Assembly (NCBI GenBank): GCA_013368515.1
Contig: JABWCI010000012.1
Coordinates: forward strand, 1 to 35,138
Origin: Candidatus Altimarinota bacterium
Lineage (GTDB): Bacteria > Patescibacteriota > Gracilibacteria > BD1-5 > UBA6164
Length of the DNA stretch: 35,138 nucleotides
Direction: 5' to 3'
The position numbers and the translations under genes were made by a program. Positions 5,386 through 25,509 of this stretch are shown here, one piece after another. Below the pieces are notes generated by a model. It made no database searches. It saw nothing but the letters and a program-made list of their open reading frames with translations, and had not been told where the DNA came from. Position 1 is the stretch's first letter. The number at the start of each line of letters is the position of its first letter.

Positions 5386-7023
5386 ATGAAAAATAACATT
5401 AACAATGCTATAAAAATAATTTTGTTTTCTATTTCTTTATTAGTTATATTTTATTATATATCAATGTGGTGAGCTAACTATTTTCACTCAAATATGATGA
5501 ATATGAATAGTTCTGTAAATAATAAAACAATATCTAGTAATGAGCTTATTTATTGACAAAATATAGAAGCAATAGATGAAAAAAAGCAAGAAATAGTTAA
5601 TTTAAAAGAAGGGGATAATTATACAATTGAAATAGTTAAAGTTAAAAAAATGATTTGAAATAAAGAGGTAGAAATGCTTTCTTATAATTGAAGTATCCCA
5701 GGTCCAATAATAAAAACAAAAGTTTGAACAAAAGCAAAAATTACAATTGTAAATAAAGTTTCTGATTTAGAAACAACTCTTCATTCACATGGTCTTAGGC
5801 TTAGTGATATGTTTGATTGAGTAGTTAAAGATATGATGTGAAAACAAGATCCAATAAAATATGGAGATAGTTTTACATATGAACTTAGTTTTCCAGATGA
5901 GTGAGTTTTTTGGTATCATCCTCATTTGAGAGAAGATATACAACAAGAATTATGACTTTATTGAAATTATATAGTAGAACCGATTTGAGAGGAAACTAGA
6001 AATTTTGTAAATCGTGAATGACCAATCATTTTAGATGATATTTTACTTAATGGAAATAAAGTAAAACCTTTTTATAAAGATTTTACAAATTATGTTTTGA
6101 TGTGAAGATTTTGAAATACTATGTTTATAAATGGTAGTTCTGATTATGAATTTAATATGAAATCTGGTGAAGTTGTCAGAGCATATGTAACAAATACAGC
6201 AAATACAAGAGTTTTTAATTTAAAAATTCCTTGAATTAAAATGAAATTAATTTGAAGTGATATTTGAAAATATGAAGAAGAAAGTTTTATAGATAATTTA
6301 ATTATTTCTCCTTGAGAAAGATATATTGTTGATTTATATTCTCCAAAATCATGAATTTTTGAGATATTAAATTCAACACCAGATGAAGATATAACTTTAT
6401 GAAAAATTAATGTTTCTAGTGAAAAAGTAGAAATATCTTTTAAAGATAAATTTGAAACTTTAAATATAAATGAAGTTGTAAAAAAAGATATAGAAAATTA
6501 TAGACAATATTTTTCAAAAGAAGTTGATAAAAATTTAGCTCTAGAATTATGAAATGTTGGTAAAAAATGATGAATTGATGAAAGTGATATGTGAATGATG
6601 TGATGACATATGATTTGAGATAATGAAGAAATTGAGTGGGAAGATAATATGCCAATGATGAATAAAGAATCAACTTCTCTAAATTATGAATGGAAGATAA
6701 TTGATGAGGATACAAAAAAGGAAAATATGGATATAAATTGGCAATTTAAAAAAGGTGATATTGTAAAAATTCGTATTGAAAATAAAAAAGATTGAGCTCA
6801 TCCTATGCAACATCCTTTTCATCTTCACGGACAAAGATTTTTAGTATTAGAAAGAAATGGAGAAAAACAAACAAATCTTGTTTGGAAAGATACTGTTTTA
6901 ATAAAAACATGAGAAAATATAGAGATATTGGCTGATATGAGTAATCCTTGAGAATGGATGGCTCATTGCCACATATCAGAACATTTATTTTCAGGTATGA
7001 TGATGCATTTCAGTGTTAAATAA
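5386..7023 (+). CDS. multicopper oxidase (CueO/laccase-like), secreted
   Basis: 545 residues with an N-terminal membrane anchor or signal (about 8-28). All four copper motifs are present: HSHG with His133 and His135, WYHPH with His178 and His180, HPFHLHG with His476, His479 and His481, and HCHISEH with His527, Cys528, His529 and His533 plus the axial Met538. A Met/Gly-rich insertion (MGMMGGHM and NMPMM near 405-425) resembles the methionine-rich loops of CueO-type cuprous oxidases. The likely reaction is oxidation of Cu(I) or other substrates with reduction of O2 to water outside the cytoplasm. It lies 21 nt behind copA and ends at a strong terminator, so it closes the copper operon. Confidence 0.9.
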
Positions 7024-7024
7024 T

Positions 7025-7052
7025 AAAAAACTCGCACATGTGCGAGTTTTTT
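7025..7052. terminator. strong bidirectional terminator after the copper operon
   Basis: A perfect palindrome centred on CTCGCACA/TGTGCGAG (7031-7046) is flanked by A6 and T6 runs. It serves the oxidase gene on the plus strand and the convergent 66-residue gene on the minus strand. Confidence 0.9.
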
Positions 7053-7061
7053 CTTTCAGTT

Positions 7062-7265
7062 GAATCACTTTATCAAGCCTTGAGACTTGCAAAATTCCTC
7101 GACTGTCATTTTTGAAACAAAGCTTCCAGAATTGGTATAGATTTTTCCATCTCCACCAACCCTATAACCAGTTTCATTCCCATCAAGATAGATCTTGTTT
7201 CCATGACCAACCTTGAGTTTTACATAAGCACCATTGGGCTTATATACCATTTTTTCCCAGCTCAT
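7062..7265 (-). CDS. small protein in canonical genetic code (TGA stop), probably acquired
   Basis: 66 residues (MSWEKMVYKPNGAYVKLKVG at the N-terminus); no family recognised. It differs from every neighbour. All ten glycines are GGN, none TGA, and codons are more GC-rich. A strong Shine-Dalgarno, AGGAGG, sits before the ATG, whereas most genes here lack one. The apparent end is TGA at 7062-7064, with a second in-frame TGA two codons later and a terminator directly after. Read with UGA = Gly, the frame would run through the terminator and about 120 codons into antisense of the oxidase gene, which is implausible. Its promoter, gene and terminator form a closed unit between two native terminators. 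It may not be made correctly in this host. The alternative is that the true product is a read-through protein. Confidence 0.7.
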
Positions 7266-7297
7266 TTTTGCCTCCTGTATAAAAATTAGCCATATAT

Positions 7298-7326
7298 ATT
7301 ATAAAATATTAATATTATTATGTCAA
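7298..7326 (-). promoter_or_regulatory. perfect sigma70 promoter of the canonical-code gene
   Basis: On the minus strand TTGACA (7321-7326) and TATAAT (7298-7303) are separated by exactly 17 bp. This is full consensus and the best promoter in the window. It lies 33 bp before the ATG at 7265, with AGGAGG between. Confidence 0.85.
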
Positions 7327-7330
7327 ATTT

Positions 7331-7364
7331 AAAAGAGTAAGAAATTTTAATTTCTTACTCTTTT
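7331..7364. terminator. terminator at the end of the zinc operon
   Basis: A perfect 15-bp stem (7331-7345 with 7350-7364) with a TTTA loop. The stop codon of znuB (7347-7349) lies in the loop and the last znuB codons form one arm, so the coding end and terminator overlap. Confidence 0.85.
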
Positions 7365-8150
7365 ATTTATCAGTGCCATTATGAAAAATATTATTAATAT
7401 CAAAACTATTGTTGCAGAGCTAGATGTTCATAAAAAATATGAAGAAAAAAGTCATATTATTACACTTAGTATAGAAAAAATTAGAGAACATATAAATACT
7501 TTTTTTAAGCTGTTTGATACTATTTTTGCTGTATTAACTGGTATTATTAAAAAAGCTCAAATAAGCATTATTCAAAACATTTTTATACTTATAGCTATAA
7601 ATAGTGATAGTATTATAAGAAAAGATATGTTGTAAATTGATGTATTTATTCATATAGATTTTGCTATATCTTCGTTTATTATTATACTTAAAAACTTGTC
7701 TTTAAATATAAAAAATAGTATATATATTATAATTGCAAAAATACTTAAAATAATTAAATCGGATTTATTTATAAAAAGTATATTTCAAAATAAAAAATTA
7801 TTTATATCTAGAGTCAGATTTCAAATAAATCAAAGTGTAAAAATACCTCCAGCAATTCCTGCTTGTGAAATTATTTCTTTTGTTGATTCACTAGTTATAT
7901 ATTTTGTTTTTTCTATAAAATAAATTAAAAAGCTTCAAATTATAGCAAATATAAATGCAAATAAATAATAATCTTTATTCATAAGTAGGGAAACAGCAAC
8001 TCATAAAAACAAAAAATTTGCTATACTATGAGTTATATTTGCTTCTTTTCTCATCACTATAAAAACTCACAAAATAGAGGCTATTAGTGATATAATTATT
8101 CAAGACAATAGAGCATTTTGAAAAAAATTGTATTGTAATATTTCAAACAT
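7347..8150 (-). CDS. znuB: zinc/manganese ABC transporter permease
   Basis: 267 residues of the ABC-3 permease family. It is almost entirely hydrophobic, with about eight membrane helices. The KIVSNS stretch after the IGAFLIIPVNTA helix matches the usual coupling-helix region of ZnuB/MntB proteins. TGA serves as Gly at many positions. It is the last gene of the regulator-znuA-znuC-znuB operon, 2 nt after znuC, and would form the membrane channel moving Zn(2+), or possibly Mn(2+), into the cytoplasm. Its stop is buried in the terminator hairpin. Confidence 0.85.
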
Positions 8151-13967: not shown

Positions 13968-14894
13968 ATGTGAAGATATCTTGATTTACTTAAAAATACA
14001 AATGAAAAAAATCTAGCTAGTTTAGACTTGGTTGTTATGGCTGCTCTTGATTTATTTTCAAGTGACTTATCTGTAAAAATCCCAGATTTTGATTTTAAAA
14101 AACCAGTTATAGTAGGTTCTTGAAATGCAAAAAATACATCAAAAATATTGTACGAAAATAGAGATGTATATTATGCAGATGAAAATAATTATAAAGAAAT
14201 TATTTCAATGCCTTGAGTAGATTGAGTTGTTATCTTTAGTGCATCTTGAGGTAAACATGCACCTATTGTAGCTCAATATGCAAAAGAAAAAAAATTGAGA
14301 GTTAAACTTGTAACTTGTAATGAAAATAATGAAACAAATAAAATTATATGAGTAGAAAATATAATTGTAACTCCTAGAAATCTAGAACCATATACATATA
14401 ATACTTCTACATATATGTGATGGATCATAGCAAAAACAAAAGAAAATCCAAAAGAAATATCAGACTATATAGAACAGCAATTGAAAACTAAAATTGATAT
14501 AGATTTTACTAAATATAATTCATTTTTATTTGTGATTCCAAATAAATTTGCAAATATAGCTCCGCTTATAGAAGTAAAATTTATAGAGTTATTTTGAAGA
14601 AATATTGCTCGTGATGTAAAAACTTTTGAAGAAATGAAGCATGCTGTAACGGTGGTTCCAAATCCTAAAGAATTATGTATCAGATTTTGAAAGCAGGATA
14701 TATATCTTTCTTGAGACATAATTGATATAGAATTACCAGATTTTCTTTGATTGGCTTGATTTATGGCAGTTTCATATTATATAGTAGGAGTTTTACAAAA
14801 TCAATTTCCTCCTTATTTCAAAAATCATATAGAAAACTATATTTCATATCTAAATAAAAGTGATTTTTGAAAAAATATAAAAATAATTGTTTAA
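13968..14894 (+). CDS. SIS-domain protein, phosphoglucose/phosphomannose isomerase-like
   Basis: 308 residues. A SIS fold is recognisable: VGSGNAKNTSKIL early, then GVVIFSASGGKHAPIVAQYA, the usual phosphosugar-binding turn, then RVKLVTCNENN. The layout resembles the bifunctional phosphoglucose/phosphomannose isomerase family, and a conserved His lies in the MKHAVTVV segment of the C-terminal half. It probably acts on sugar phosphates in the cytoplasm; the substrate is unproven. ATG at 13968 is followed directly by a TGA-coded Gly. It is monocistronic, with terminators or promoters on both sides. Confidence 0.65.
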
Positions 14895-19524: not shown

Positions 19525-20307
19525 ATGCCAAAATTTAATGATTTAGATTTACAAAATTGGAAAGATATAGATTTAGACATGAATAGTTTATGGGTTATTC
19601 CTGAAAGAAAAAAGGGATGAAAACATGATAATTTTTATCATTGAAATTTTATTCCTCAAATTCCTGAACATTTTATAAAAAGATATACTAAAAAATGAGG
19701 TTGGGTATTAGATCCATTTTTATGAAGTGCTACAACTGCAATAGAATGTGAGGAATTATGAAGAAACATTATTTGAATTGATATTCAAAAAGAATTAGTA
19801 GATAGAGCAAAAGAGTTAATTGATTCAAAGAAAATACATGCTCATTTTTGAGTTTGAGATAGTTCATCAAAAGAAACAAGGGAAGATATAGAAAAAATAT
19901 TTAAACATAGAAAAATAGATTGAGTTGATTTAGCTTTACTTCATCCTCCTTATGCTGATATTATTAAATTTACTGATAAAAAAGAAGATCTTTCGAATAG
20001 TTGAAGCATTGAAAACTTTTTATTAGATTTTTGAAAAGTTTTAAAAAATACATATAAACTTTTAAAGGAGAAGTGATATATGGTAATTGTTATGTGAGAT
20101 AAATATCAAAATTCAGAATGGATTCCATTATGATTTATGTGTATGACTGAAGCTCAAAAGGTATGATTTAAATTAAAATGAGTTATTGTTAAAAATATGG
20201 AGTGAAATAGATGAAAATCTTGAAATTGAGCAATATGGAAATATAGAGCATTAAATAGTGATTACTATTTATTTAAACATGAATATATTTTAGTTTTTAA
20301 GAAATAA
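19525..20307 (+). CDS. DNA methyltransferase (N4-cytosine/N6-adenine type)
   Basis: 260 residues. The SAM-binding motif I is LDPFLGSATTAIECEELG (Asp63 onward) and the catalytic motif IV is HPPY at 140-143, in place of the commoner (D/N/S)PP(Y/F). A late GNRGKSGNGAIWK loop and the LNSDYYLFKHEYILVFKK end are typical of N6_N4_Mtase proteins. The order is motif I before IV. It marks DNA, presumably to protect it from a partner nuclease. It follows the structured RNA by about 12 nt and is separated from the DUF262 gene by 4 nt, so MTase, DUF262 and HEPN form one operon. The base modified and the target site are unknown. Confidence 0.82.
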
Positions 20308-20311
20308 TAGT

Positions 20312-21448
20312 ATGGTAAATATTGATAAATTAAAAGAAGAAATTACTTCTTTAGAAAAAAATACAATTGCAGATTGATCAACAGTTTTAATTGATCATCT
20401 TATTATTAATTATGATAAAGATAAATTAAATATAAAACCTAAGTATCAAAGGGTATTTAGATGGAATAAGGATCAAAAATCTAAATTTATAGAATCATTA
20501 TTATTATGAATTCCTTTACCTAGCATATTTGTTGCTGAAGATGAAGATTGAAAATGGGAATTAGTTGATTGATTACAAAGAATTTCAACAGTTTTGGAAT
20601 TTTCAAAAAATAATAAATTTTTAAAAGATTATGTTGAAAATTCAGAATCTATAGTTTCCTGATTAGATAATTGACAATATTTAAAAAATTTAGAATGAAT
20701 AACTTGGGATATATTACCAGAAAAATATAAAAATAGAATTTTAGATACAAAGATTTATGTTTGAGTAATTAAAAACACATGAGATGTAAAAGCTAAATTT
20801 GAGTTATTTGAAAGATTGAATACTTGATGAACAAAATTGTCTAATCAGGAAGTAAGAAATTGTTTATTAGTAGATAAAAGTGAAGATAATTATAATAAAA
20901 TAGAAGACATATCTAATAATGAAAAATTTTTAAAATTAATAGATAATATTTCTGAAGATAAACTAAGTGCAAAAGAAAATATGGAATTAGTTTTAAGATG
21001 TTTAGCTTTGAAGAATATTAAACTAGATAAAAATATCAAAATTGAAGAATTAATAGATGATTTTATTTATAAAATTATTTGATTAGAAAATAGTATTTTT
21101 CTTCAAGAATTAGATATAAGTAATGATATTTCTAATTTTTGAAAAATGGTAGAGTTATTATATGATTTAAATGATAGATCTTTTAATAAGATTAATGATG
21201 ATTGAACTAGAAAAAATCATTTTATTTATCCTTTATTTGATACTATATCTTCTTGAATTACATATAATATTTCAGTTTGAAATATAGATGTTAATAATTC
21301 AACTCATAAAGAAAAACTAAAAGAAAAAATTGACTCTATACAAAATAATAGTGAATATATTTTATGAGCAACAACTTGAAGCTCATTAATGAGATTAAAA
21401 TTTGCGAGTATTTTTTGAAAAGATTTTTTTAATTTAGCTCAAGATTAA
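20312..21448 (+). CDS. DUF262 (GmrSD-like N-terminal nuclease fold) protein
   Basis: 378 residues. Residues 25-190 show the DUF262 hallmarks: PKYQRVFRWNKDQKSKFIES, then LLLGIPLPSIFV, then LVDGLQRISTVLEF with DGLQR at 86-90, then LFERLNTGGTKLSNQEVRN. In GmrSD and SspE this ParB/Srx-like domain binds or hydrolyses NTP and drives cleavage of modified DNA. The partner DUF1524 nuclease domain is absent here; the C-terminal half is helical and not recognised. It sits between the methyltransferase and a HEPN protein with 3-4 nt gaps. A defence role, perhaps sensing DNA that lacks or carries the methyl mark, is inferred. Confidence 0.85.
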
Positions 21449-21451
21449 AAT

Positions 21452-22225
21452 ATGAAACAAAATGAATTTTATTCATCTTTTTATGATATAAAATTAAAAA
21501 GAGAAAGACAATTATCTGATTTATTTTGAGTTATAACTAAATTTGAAGAAAAAATAAATAATTATGATAAGTTGGATCAATTTGATAAATTATTAATTAA
21601 TAATTTAGTAATTCATAGTATTGTAATAAGTAATTCAAATATACAATGATTTTTTGAAGATATTATTGATTTGTTTGAAAAATTTATATTAAGAAATAAT
21701 GTTAAAATAAATAAATTAAATAAAAATATTTATGATATGTATTATGAAAAACATAATAAAATAATTATTAGAGATTTTTTAGTTTATTGAGAGTGAATTT
21801 CAACAAAAGATTTATGAGAATTCATTTCAAAAACATCTAATGGCAATATAATTTTAGAAAGTTGAACATCAAATACTATTAATTATGATAATTTGAAACA
21901 AATATTAAAAATATTAATTATTGATTTTGATAAATTAGTATGAAATATAAATATAGATATCAATGATTATAGGTTTATAGATAATAGAATATGATTTAAT
22001 TATGTATTAAAATCAGATAATAAGGTTAAATTTTATAAAAAAATTATAAGTGATTTAAATAATACTAGAAATGAAATTGCACATTGAAAAATATTAAAAT
22101 CTGATAATATAAGGAATAATTATGATTTATTTTTATTAATAAAAAAATATTATTTTGATAAATTTTTAATAGAATTGGAATTAAGTATTAAAGATAATAT
22201 AAGAAATTGAATATATTTTAAGTAG
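21452..22225 (+). CDS. HEPN-domain protein (MAE_28990-like), probable RNase effector
   Basis: 257 residues, helical throughout. The C-terminal part has LNNTRNEIAHG, with the R-x4-H catalytic motif of HEPN ribonucleases (Arg206, Asn207, His211). The layout, an N-terminal helical domain and a late RNxxAH, resembles the MAE_28990/MAE_18760 HEPN families, which I recall as often paired with DUF262 genes. HEPN proteins in toxin-antitoxin and abortive-infection systems cut RNA. It begins 3 nt after the DUF262 stop and ends at TAG, followed by a terminator. The family call rests on the motif and neighbourhood. Confidence 0.68.
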
Positions 22226-22235
22226 TAGAATAGAT

Positions 22236-22284
22236 ATTTATAGTCTGTAGATTTATAGTCATCATTTAATATAATGGTGACTAT
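22236..22284 (+). promoter_or_regulatory. direct-repeat operator and terminator between the two defence operons
   Basis: ATTTATAGTC occurs twice, at 22236-22245 and 22251-22260, spaced by 15 bp, and GACTAT occurs inverted at 22279-22284. Such paired boxes upstream of a small XRE gene resemble C-protein operators of restriction-modification systems. The second box is also the left arm of a 12-bp hairpin (22255-22266 with 22273-22284, one or two G-U pairs) followed by a T run, a good terminator for the HEPN operon. One element may do both jobs. Confidence 0.6.
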
Positions 22285-22310
22285 ATTTTTTATATTTAAA
22301 AATTAAAAAT

Positions 22311-22511
22311 ATGAATATTAAATCAAAATTTTGAGATAGAGTAAGGGATTTAAGAAAAAAACAAGGTTTATCTCAAGAAAAGTTAGCTGAAAAATGCAAA
22401 TTACATAGGACATATATTTGAATAATTGAAAGATGAGAAAAAAATGTTTGTCTTGAAAATATTGAAATATTAGCAATAGCTTTAGAAGTTGAAATAAAAG
22501 ATTTATTTTAG
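22311..22511 (+). CDS. XRE-family regulator, C-protein-like
   Basis: 66 residues. A full helix-turn-helix is seen: KFGDRVRDLRKKQGLSQEKL, then AEKCKLHRTYIGIIERGEKN, then VCLENIEILAIALEVEIKDL and F. This is the length and sequence style of the controller (C) proteins that time restriction enzyme expression after a restriction-modification system enters a new cell. It lies 26 bp after a repeat that looks like a C-box operator and 16 bp before a nuclease gene, which fits the usual C-R order. Repression or activation of its own operon is inferred. Confidence 0.82.
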
Positions 22512-22527
22512 TAATTTTTTTAAAAAA

Positions 22528-23730
22528 ATGACAGCACATGTTTTTGTTGTTTCTCAAGAAACTTTTCCAATTCACTTAAAATATATGTTTGCTTGAACTT
22601 GAGCATGAGAAGATTGACATGAAAATTTATGAATGATTTCTGATGTTGCTTCTTGTAGAGAATGAGATAAAATATTATTTTTTGTAACCTGAGTAGGTTT
22701 TTTCGGTTCATTTAAAGTAAAAAAAGAATATTTTTTAGATAAGACTTGAGATACTTATATGGATTATCAAAATAAAAAATGAAAAACTGAAATAATAAAA
22801 AAATTAACAAATAGAATTTTAATTAAACCTTCTGAAGTTTATTCAAATTGACTTTCAGAATGGGATATTTTAGATAATCTATCAAATTTACCTAATTGAA
22901 AGAAAAGTAATATTCAAGATTTTTTATGGTCTTTATTATATAGAAAATTAGATTGAAATAGAGGATGTACTCCAATTTTTGATTATGAATATGATTTAAT
23001 TTTAGATCAAATAAAAGCAGTAAATAATAATAAAAAATTGTTATGTAAAAATTTATTTTTTAATTGAAATAAAATTATTGAAATAAATGAACCTAGTAAA
23101 GAATATGATTTAAGTAATGTAATTAATAATGTTACATTAAAAAAATATATATGAAAAGATAAATGAGATTATATTTATGAAATTGAAGATAAAATCTATG
23201 ATGTTAAAAATAATGAAGTAAACAAAAATCAATTTAAGAGATGATCAAAAACAGAATTATGTTTACAAAAAACTGTAGAATCAGAATTAGAATTATTTTT
23301 TGCTACATATTGAAATACAAATACTAAACAATGAAAGGAAGTTTCTAAAGTAATTTGAAAAAATATTTTTTATTTTTGAACACAAGTTGTTTGTAGTTTT
23401 TGAGTAAAAAGAATTGATATATTAACAATAGATAAAGAAAATATAATAAGGGTTATAGAATTAAAAGATACTAAATATTATGATTGAATTATAGATGAAC
23501 AGTTAAAATATTATTTATGTTGGGTAGATCAATATATTAAAAGCAGTAAAGATAAAGTAATTGAACCAGTTATTGTAATAAATACTACAGATTGATTGGA
23601 TTATGATGAAATAAATAATAAAATAATAACTTTATCAAAAGAATATAAAATTAAATCAAAAATATTACCAATAAAAATATTTTTTTGGGATATAGAAGAA
23701 TGAGATATTAAATTTAATTTATTTAAATAA
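22528..23730 (+). CDS. restriction endonuclease-like: PUA/EVE-like head with NucS-like PD-(D/E)xK nuclease
   Basis: 400 residues. The first 150 look like a PUA/EVE-type domain: AHVFVVSQETFPIHLKYMFA, then VASCREGDKILFFVTGVGFF. This fold often reads modified or flipped bases. The C-terminal third has a nuclease core RIDILTIDKENIIRVIELK with Asp297, Glu311 and Lys313, the D...ExK pattern of NucS/EndoMS-like and related enzymes, plus the DEQLKYYLCWVDQYI helix. It probably cuts DNA in a modification-dependent way or serves as the restriction subunit for the downstream methyltransferase. It follows the C-protein-like gene by 16 nt and precedes the HNH gene by 7 nt. Confidence 0.65.
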
Positions 23731-23737
23731 TTTTTTT

Positions 23738-24391
23738 ATGATTAAAAATCCTTTTAATGAATGAACTCAGATTTATAAAATTTTTGAAATTTTATCAGAT
23801 TTGGAATGGCATTGTTCTGAACATGAGCTACCTTGAAGCCAACCTGCTAAAGCATTACAGATGATTAGACAAGCTTGATATAAAATGGAGAAAGTAGGTG
23901 CTAATTATGAAAAAAGAATGTTTTGTGAAGTATGTCAAAGAAAAACACCTTTTAGAAAATTAATATCATTAGAGAAAGAAGAAGAATCAATTGAAAGAAC
24001 AAAAACATTAAATCCAAAATTAAAAGAAAGAATTATAAAATTATTTTGAAATAAAGATGCTTTTTTGGATTATGAACCTACTTGAAGAAAAATAGAAGTA
24101 GATCATAGAATCCCACAAGTAAGATGGTTGGAAAAGGAAGAAGATTATATAAATATGACAGATGAACAATTATTAGATAAATTTATGTTATTAGTTAGAG
24201 AACATAATTTATTAAAAAGTAGAAATTGCGAAAGATGTGAAAGAACATGAAAAAGACAATCTTTTTTTGGTATAGATTTCTTTTATGAGTGAGATGAAAA
24301 TTATAATGAAAAGTTATGATGTAAATGATGTGGTTGGTATAATCCTGAAAAATGGAGAGAAAAATTAAATAAAAAAATAACTTGAAAATAA
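23738..24391 (+). CDS. HNH restriction endonuclease with zinc fingers
   Basis: 217 residues. The nuclease core is IEVDHRIPQVRW (Asp122, His123) followed by LLVREHNLLKSRNC (Asn157), an H-N-N/H-N-H pattern. Three cysteine pairs flank it: FCEVCQRK, NCERCERTGK and GCKGCGWYNP; these would hold structural zinc. The N-terminal 60 residues, with HELPGSQPAKALQMIRQAGY, look like a winged-helix DNA-binding domain. This resembles Type II HNH restriction enzymes. It lies between the NucS-like nuclease and the adenine methyltransferase, so it is the likely restriction partner of the latter. Recognition site unknown. Confidence 0.75.
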
Positions 24392-24441
24392 TTCATTTTT
24401 GAATACTATAAGTATCAATTAAATAACTTAAAAATAATTAT

Positions 24442-25509
24442 ATGAATTACATAGGATCAAAAAAATCACTGTTAGAATTTATTGAAAAATCTATAGCAAA
24501 AGTTGTATCAGAAAAAGATTATAAATTTTCTGATCTTTTTGCTGGAACTTGAATAGTTTGAAGATATTTTAAAGAAAAATGACATAGTGTTATAGCAAAT
24601 GATTTACAATATTATAGCTTTGTTATCAATAAAAATTATATAGAAAATCACAAACCTTTAGAATTTAAAGGTTTATTTGATATCATTGAAAAATTGAAAG
24701 ATACAGAGATATTAAAAAGAAAAGATTTAGTTCTAAATTTTTTAGATTCGTTAAAAGGTAAAAAAGGTTTTATTTATAAAAATTATTCTGTTTGATGAAC
24801 TAAATGACAAGAACATGAAAGAATGTATTTTAGTGATGAAAATGCAATGAAATGTGATGCAATTAGAACACAAATAGAAGATTGGAAAAAATCAGAATCA
24901 ATAAATGAAAATGAATACTATTTTTTACTAGCTAGTTTGTTAGAAAATATAGATAAAGTTGCAAATACTGCTTCTGTTTATTGAGCTTTTTTGAAAAAAC
25001 TAAAAAAATCTGCTCAAGTTTTAATGAATTTAAAACCTGCTGATTTCTTTTTAAATGATCACGAACATACAGTTTACAATTCTGATATTAATGAATTAAT
25101 AAAAAATACTTCTCATGATGTTGTTTATCTAGATCCACCATATAATGAAAGACAATATAGTGCAAATTATCATGTACTTGAAACAATAGCAAAATATGAT
25201 AATCCTGAAATAAGATGAAAGACTTGAATGAGAGATTATTCTATGCAAAAATCATTATATTGTAGAAAAACTGAGGTAAAAAACTCATTTAGAGAATTAA
25301 TTCAAAATATAGATGCTAAATATGTTTTTTTAAGCTACAATTGTGAAGGTTTAATGAGTTTTGATGATATTAAGGAGGTTATGTCAGAAAGATGAGAATA
25401 TTGAGTTTTTACGAAAGAATATAGAAGATTTAAAGCTGATAAAACTGAAGCAAGAAATCATAAAAAAGATAGTGTAACTGAATATTTACATTATGTAGTT
25501 ATAAAATAA
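24442..25509 (+). CDS. D12-class N6-adenine DNA methyltransferase
   Basis: 355 residues. The protein opens with the family signature MNYIGSKKSLLEFI. The SAM-binding motif is SDLFAGTGIVGRYF (Asp31 on) and the catalytic motif is VVYLDPPYNERQYSANYH with DPPY at 231-234. A long insertion between them contains KNYSVGGTKGQEHERMYFSD and is the probable target-recognition part. It methylates adenine at N6, protecting the host from one or both upstream nucleases. Gap to the HNH gene is 50 nt; the same operon is likely. Confidence 0.88.

Follow-up and report, generated by a model that had tools for sequence, protein, structure and literature searches.

Standard-code gene cassettes kept on the chromosomes of bacteria that read UGA as glycine

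Introduction

The genes of the Agrobacterium T-DNA carry the expression signals of the recipient, which are eukaryotic, and the T-DNA has border repeats and is moved by a known transfer system. arfA and brfA are small non-stop genes under the control of tmRNA. Another relevant case comes from phages of Gracilibacteria and Absconditabacteria, some of which are compatible with code 11 and have no in-frame TGA although their host reads UGA as glycine (Liu et al. 2023; PMC10746230). A phage that itself uses code 25 is also on record (PMC13059738). Genomes of BD1-5 were found to lack prfB (PMC6851277), and the related Absconditicoccaceae live as episymbionts of Gammaproteobacteria and depend on host lipids (PMC13059738).

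One expects every working gene of a genome to follow the code that its own ribosomes read. Here, several unrelated families of a code-25 genome appear to have been written otherwise over the history of the lineage. As resident genes with the expression features of another cell, they would have their nearest functional analogy in T-DNA; however, they are single cassettes scattered over the chromosome, their code is that of other bacteria, and no transfer system was identified. With arfA and brfA the cassette shares a small gene that would have no usable stop before its terminator in a code-25 cell. The difference is that its predicted product is a folded domain and not a rescue peptide, that the proteins across the set are unrelated, and that TGA and TAA replace one another among its members. 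The code-11 compatibility of the phages extends over entire genomes, which carry back-up stops after TGA, whereas here it concerns old, single chromosomal genes, mostly with none. Finally, transferred genes that have not yet ameliorated would share the higher GC content, the foreign codons and the standard code, and two members of the set, NhaA and an acyl carrier protein (ACP), do resemble proteobacterial genes; yet these features persist in the conserved families, whereas genes of equal age next to them change. No chromosomal genes kept in the standard code by a code-25 bacterium were described in the open-licence papers searched, which does not establish priority.

Genetic code of the cell

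The window, a stretch of 35,138 nucleotides from a Candidatus Altimarinota bacterium, is contig C1 of a genome of 1.15 Mb in 28 contigs (G000). TGA accounts for 73.7% of the glycine codons in this genome (519 ORFs, 657 kb), and ORFs with at least eight glycines and no TGA number 3 of 442. A tRNA with anticodon UCA was located by ARAGORN at G000:C23:37788-37866, and tmRNA is present. A GGAGG motif is found upstream of just 1 of 519 ORFs, and the 3' end of the 16S rRNA, ...GGACTATCTCCTTA (L159, minus strand, 7124; G000:C22), is one base off the usual anti-Shine-Dalgarno sequence.

RF2 had been expected to be missing from this cell, and the release factors bear this out. In G000 the sole class-I release factor scores below the cut-off of the prfB model and has the PAT motif of RF1; its gene contains 15 in-frame TGA codons and spells the GGQ motif as GGT TGA CAA. 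No RF2 and no second class-I release factor were found in G000. A match was obtained in 43 of 48 genomes from the same GTDB family, and only one of the 48 (G487, a 2.7-Mb bin) passes the RF2 cut-off; this bin also carries a gene of RF1 type.

A standard-code cassette in the window

The features of the cassette and of the genes compared with it are collected in Table 1. The first-pass annotation had described a consensus promoter, an AGGAGG, ten GGN glycines, TGA followed by a second TGA, and a terminator, flanked by genes that favour TGA for glycine. All of these parts are present, and the canonical-code cassette is confirmed as real and, given the genome-wide counts above, as no product of chance. 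With regard to the strong Shine-Dalgarno site, AGGAGG does stand before the gene, but the altered 16S 3' end means that it pairs with a wobble. The neighbours are not without promoters, as TTGACA and TATAAT boxes with at most one mismatch accompany 42 of 859 genes.

Table 1. Coordinates of the standard-code cassette, its neighbours and other standard-code genes (positions in the window unless a contig is named)
Feature	Coordinates	Strand	Remarks
Family 1 gene, 66 aa, standard code	7065-7265	-	ATG at 7265, TGA at 7067-7065; ten GGN and zero TGA glycines
-35 box TTGACA	7321-7326	-	perfect match
-10 box TATAAT	7298-7303	-	perfect match; 17-nt spacer from -35 box
Leader GCTAATTTTT	7281-7290	-	kept in genus copies; resembles the leaders of further standard-code genes (noted post hoc)
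Shine-Dalgarno AGGAGG	7271-7276	-	
Second TGA	7056-7058	-	in frame; no in-frame TAA or TAG before the terminator
Intrinsic terminator	7021-7052		bidirectional, common to the converging oxidase gene; stem 7030-7047, ACTCGCAC/GTGCGAGT, 8 bp; T run follows on the minus strand
Multicopper-oxidase-like gene	5386-7023	+	code 25; 30 TGA, 12 GGN; codon control
ABC-permease-like membrane protein gene	7347-8150	-	code 25; 12 TGA, 3 GGN
Family 2 gene, 277 aa, membrane-anchored by appearance	G000:C6:10783-11616 (L074)	-	10 GGN, TGA end, GC3 0.42
NhaA, standard code	G000:C27:51914-53101 (L167:11914-13101)	-	39 GGN, 0 TGA, TGA end
ACP, standard code	G480:C3, L218:11488-11736	-	TGA end

Searches of Pfam, NCBIfam and PDB sequences with the 66-residue protein assigned it to no family, and PHROGs returned a single weak and partial match (E 0.0037). 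Its structure model is confident (pLDDT 91.6). Fold searches with this model gave weak matches only; among them, the tyrosinase caddie protein MelC1, 9-19% identical, may bear a weak likeness in fold, with scores (Foldseek E 0.26, VIA-align Z 3.8) that fall far short of a safe value. A structured RNA was considered as the cause of the high GC content, and both the confident protein model and the concentration of substitutions at codon position 3 speak against it.

Two further features of the window lie apart from the cassette. Positions 19525-25509 hold a defence-like cluster in code 25 with N6_N4_Mtase and D12 class DNA methylases and a GmrSD-type restriction gene. A VirB4/TraG-type ATPase is also encoded; such genes prove nothing on transfer.

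Distribution and age of family 1

The cassette had been taken for a transfer from a bacterium with the normal code, and a database search for the donor had been proposed. A scan of genome contigs from all bacteria with the one query gave three relatives, 92, 89 and 73% identical, all from 'Ca. Gracilibacteria' and all adjoining the same multicopper-oxidase gene. A profile search of 353 genomes of the class then recovered 17 copies in 15 genomes and 7 genera, and every copy found sits in the same GTDB family. Outside this family, no homologue was found in the sets searched: profiles gave nothing convincing in a 380-genome sample of the phylum, and no homologues were found in the phages, plasmids and viral contigs.

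Five genomes of the genus carry the gene in the same neighbourhood. Four other genera, with seven genomes, have it immediately ahead of recJ-like genes, and a tRNA-Arg often flanks its other side; the copper neighbourhood is confined to the one genus. Chimeric assembly is excluded, as independent assemblies show the same junctions. The divergence of family 1 is comparable to that of its neighbours. Most of its substitutions are at codon position 3, and thus the protein appears to be under some constraint. The gene is therefore neither patchy, nor out of synteny, nor younger than the genes around it, and recent transfer of family 1 is not supported. The first-pass annotation was right about the code, the TGA end and RF2, but not about transfer, and it did not notice the wider set of genes.

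The 15 intact copies of family 1 contain 126 GGN and zero TGA glycines, and TGA ends 15 of 15. A TGA end is likewise seen in the second copy of a tandem (L011) and is kept by a frameshifted copy in G503, while a divergent tandem copy in G503 closes with TAA and has no TGA glycines either. Ends in TAA or TAG at the same place among code-25 homologues had been named as an observation that would count against the first-pass reading, and these are nearly missing: TGA closes 17 of 18 copies and TAA 1 of 18. The claim that the end is always TGA was dropped, given this one copy and the mixed stops of families 3 and 6 described below.

Translation in code 25 had been predicted to run on into the terminator. 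For the message of the window this holds: it would read ...GLIK-Gly-FNGKKKLAHVRVF, with no stop before the terminator. Most other copies likewise have no TAA or TAG ahead of it. The TAA copy is an exception, and so are L020, L021 and L023, in which TAA follows 3-5 codons past the TGA, so that they are not non-stop. The tails after the TGA are unrelated among copies, and no common sequence after TGA was found across the standard-code genes compared. Selection on the non-stop state itself could not be demonstrated, since short AT-rich tails free of TAA and TAG are not rare.

Retention of the standard code

Between G000 and its sister genome G480, counted in both directions and with genome pairs that are not independent, four neighbour genes kept 15% of their G/C third positions and 22/52 (42%) of their GGN codons, against 67% and 18/18 in family 1 and 62% and 18/18 in family 2; over families 1-3, GGN was kept in 21/21 cases, for which the chance at the neighbour rate is about 1e-8. 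Synonymous divergence of the family 1 gene is similar to that of its neighbours (0.25 against 0.30), and the same is true of family 2. In family 3, the G/C third positions are lost nearly at the pace of the neighbours. Because family 1 keeps GGN where its neighbours lose it, its readability in the standard code appears to be maintained rather than a relic. The comparisons show family 1, as far as sequences can tell, to be old, vertically inherited and kept in the standard code.

Strong expression at home was considered as a cause of the missing TGA, since TGA use in G000 is lower in ribosomal genes (44 of 123 glycines) and in EF-Tu (9 of 41). However, ribosomal genes and EF-Tu keep the opposite codon preferences. 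Lysine is encoded by AAG at a frequency of 0.56 and 0.62 in families 1 and 2 and of 0.03 in ribosomal genes, leucine by TTA in 0/30 cases against 70/97, and GC3 is 0.36 and 0.42 against 0.10. With a codon usage opposite to that of ribosomal genes, the lack of TGA in families 1 and 2 is not explained by high expression at home. A code and a codon usage that are not those of the donor cell appear to be kept by selection, as would be looked for in a set of genes directed at a host.

Other standard-code genes

In search of further members, 1.14 Mb of G000 were read in stretches and scanned with a codon model, and 816 kb of G480 were read. Family 2 is found throughout the genus, syntenic and with a TGA end in 5/5 genomes, and has a distant copy in G504 (L135). 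Family 3 (137 aa) is likewise syntenic in five genomes, and ends there at the same place with TGA, TAA, TAA, TAA and TGA. Family 6 is a PgsA-like phosphatidyltransferase with an intact motif; of the five genomes of the genus, three end it in TAA and two in TGA. Since families 3 and 6 swap TGA and TAA in place, TGA behaves as a stop in these genes.

Sequence comparison points the same way for family 1, whose ends align, and for NhaA, in which the TGA coincides with the normal C-terminus of its family; read in code 25, the NhaA gene would meet no stop before its terminator. NhaA is 57% identical to NhaA of an Agrobacterium plasmid. In the matching slot of G480 there is instead an unrelated standard-code NhaD with a TAA end; a DHH-type gene (74% identical) flanks the slot in both genomes, and the terminators of NhaA and NhaD are similar. 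G000 also carries an NhaD-like gene in its own code (26 TGA, 6 GGN, TAA end). The ACP of G480 is up to 59% identical to proteobacterial ACPs. A crude pattern scan of G000 and G480 gave no clear motifs of own-code fatty-acid or CDP-diglyceride synthesis, which would leave ACP and the PgsA-like enzyme without pathway partners at home. NhaA, NhaD and ACP were each seen in a single genome and may simply have arrived by recent transfer.

Where the genes may be read

Taken together, these observations suggest, but do not prove, that the standard-code genes are meant for reading in another cell, for example a host. That the proteins would be produced by a cell that uses the standard code and has RF2, with the host or prey as the likeliest candidate, is the reading we tentatively prefer, at somewhat below an even chance. 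The more specific idea of a store of genes in host code (for small proteins, the Na+/H+ antiporters NhaA and NhaD, a phosphatidyltransferase and ACP), whose products would come out right only in the host, is doubtful; it would amount to a genetic parasitism gated by the code, with the UGA stop serving as a lock at home. On the preferred reading, the code-25 family holds a small set of chromosomal standard-code cassettes, of which the DNA or the message would pass to the presumed host or prey cell. In the cytoplasm of the producer, UGA would be read as glycine and translation would run to the end of the transcript, where trans-translation by tmRNA might act on the non-stop complex and clear the product, so that the gene would be off at home. 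The host or prey would be the most economical site for correct reading. The episymbiont lifestyle of this bacterium is itself assumed, by analogy with its relatives in the literature, and the cassettes, which are scattered singly, showed neither a delivery route nor a border sequence or secretion signal. The perfect -35 and -10 boxes argue against reading in the host, suggesting transcription in the producer too, as do the members that end in TAA or meet TAA or TAG 3-5 codons past the TGA, which would also work at home. Much greater confidence attaches to the description than to the mechanism.

Several other explanations compete with reading in a host. Import from standard-code bacteria followed by slow adaptation, with TGA glycines and local codons still missing, would account for the foreign codon usage of families 1 and 2 and for the proteobacterial likeness of NhaA and ACP, but an old, syntenic family 1 with no donor homologue does not fit it, nor does the retention of GGN and G/C third positions next to neighbours of the same age that lose them; we regard it as unlikely. 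Just as unlikely is a function at home, in which UGA would be glycine, the protein would gain a short tail or run into the terminator, and its amount would be set by tmRNA as for arfA and brfA. The consensus promoter, the presence of tmRNA and the lack of TAA or TAG before the terminator in most copies agree with this; against it stand the unrelated tails, the early TAA in three copies and the TAA end in one, and it leaves unexplained the foreign codon usage, the TGA-free body and the exchange of TGA for TAA in families 3 and 6.

The cassettes are also self-contained, avoid in-frame TGA in the same way as the phages compatible with code 11 (PMC10746230) and, in family 1, adjoin a tRNA-Arg in several genera, so that they might be the present or past cargo of mobile elements which live in both code-25 and standard-code cells. 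The empty searches of phages, plasmids and viral contigs, the fixed chromosomal places of families 1, 2 and 3 and the mostly missing back-up stops make this rather improbable. Lastly, the producer might terminate at UGA in these messages through an unrecognised factor or context. The exchange of TGA for TAA in place and the intact catalytic motifs in genes that end in TGA or show this exchange speak for it; with UGA as the main glycine codon, one class-I release factor and no shared sequence after the TGA, we hold it to be the least probable of these explanations.

To return to reading in a host: if the genes serve that cell, episymbionts would manipulate the physiology of their host by passing on genes, and recoding would serve to contain them. 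If instead the producer is served, UGA must carry a second meaning in its cells that has gone unrecognised. In both cases the strictness of a reassigned code is put to the test. Standard-code genes are also a marker that can be searched for systematically across code-25 genomes, and the host might be identified with the help of their codon usage.

Additional TGA-free genes

A number of other genes share some of these features. In G480:C3, a standard-code ORF of 120 aa (L212:7179-7538, plus strand) has no assigned family and a terminator directly after its TGA. In G000:C19, a TGA-free gene for a 107-aa protein with a signal-peptide-like start (L084:10775-11095, minus strand) has foreign codon usage and ends in TAA. 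The end of G000:C20 carries genes for an HlyD-like adaptor (L120:12878-14116, minus strand) and a GNAT protein (14258-14713, plus strand), both TGA-free and with foreign codon usage; this may be a recent insertion or a chimeric end. In genus g331, an ilvC-like gene (L094:6334-7821, minus strand; 38 GGN) and a threonine-synthase-like gene (L095:12463-13926, plus strand; 29 GGN) are also free of TGA, and may be either transfers or more standard-code genes.
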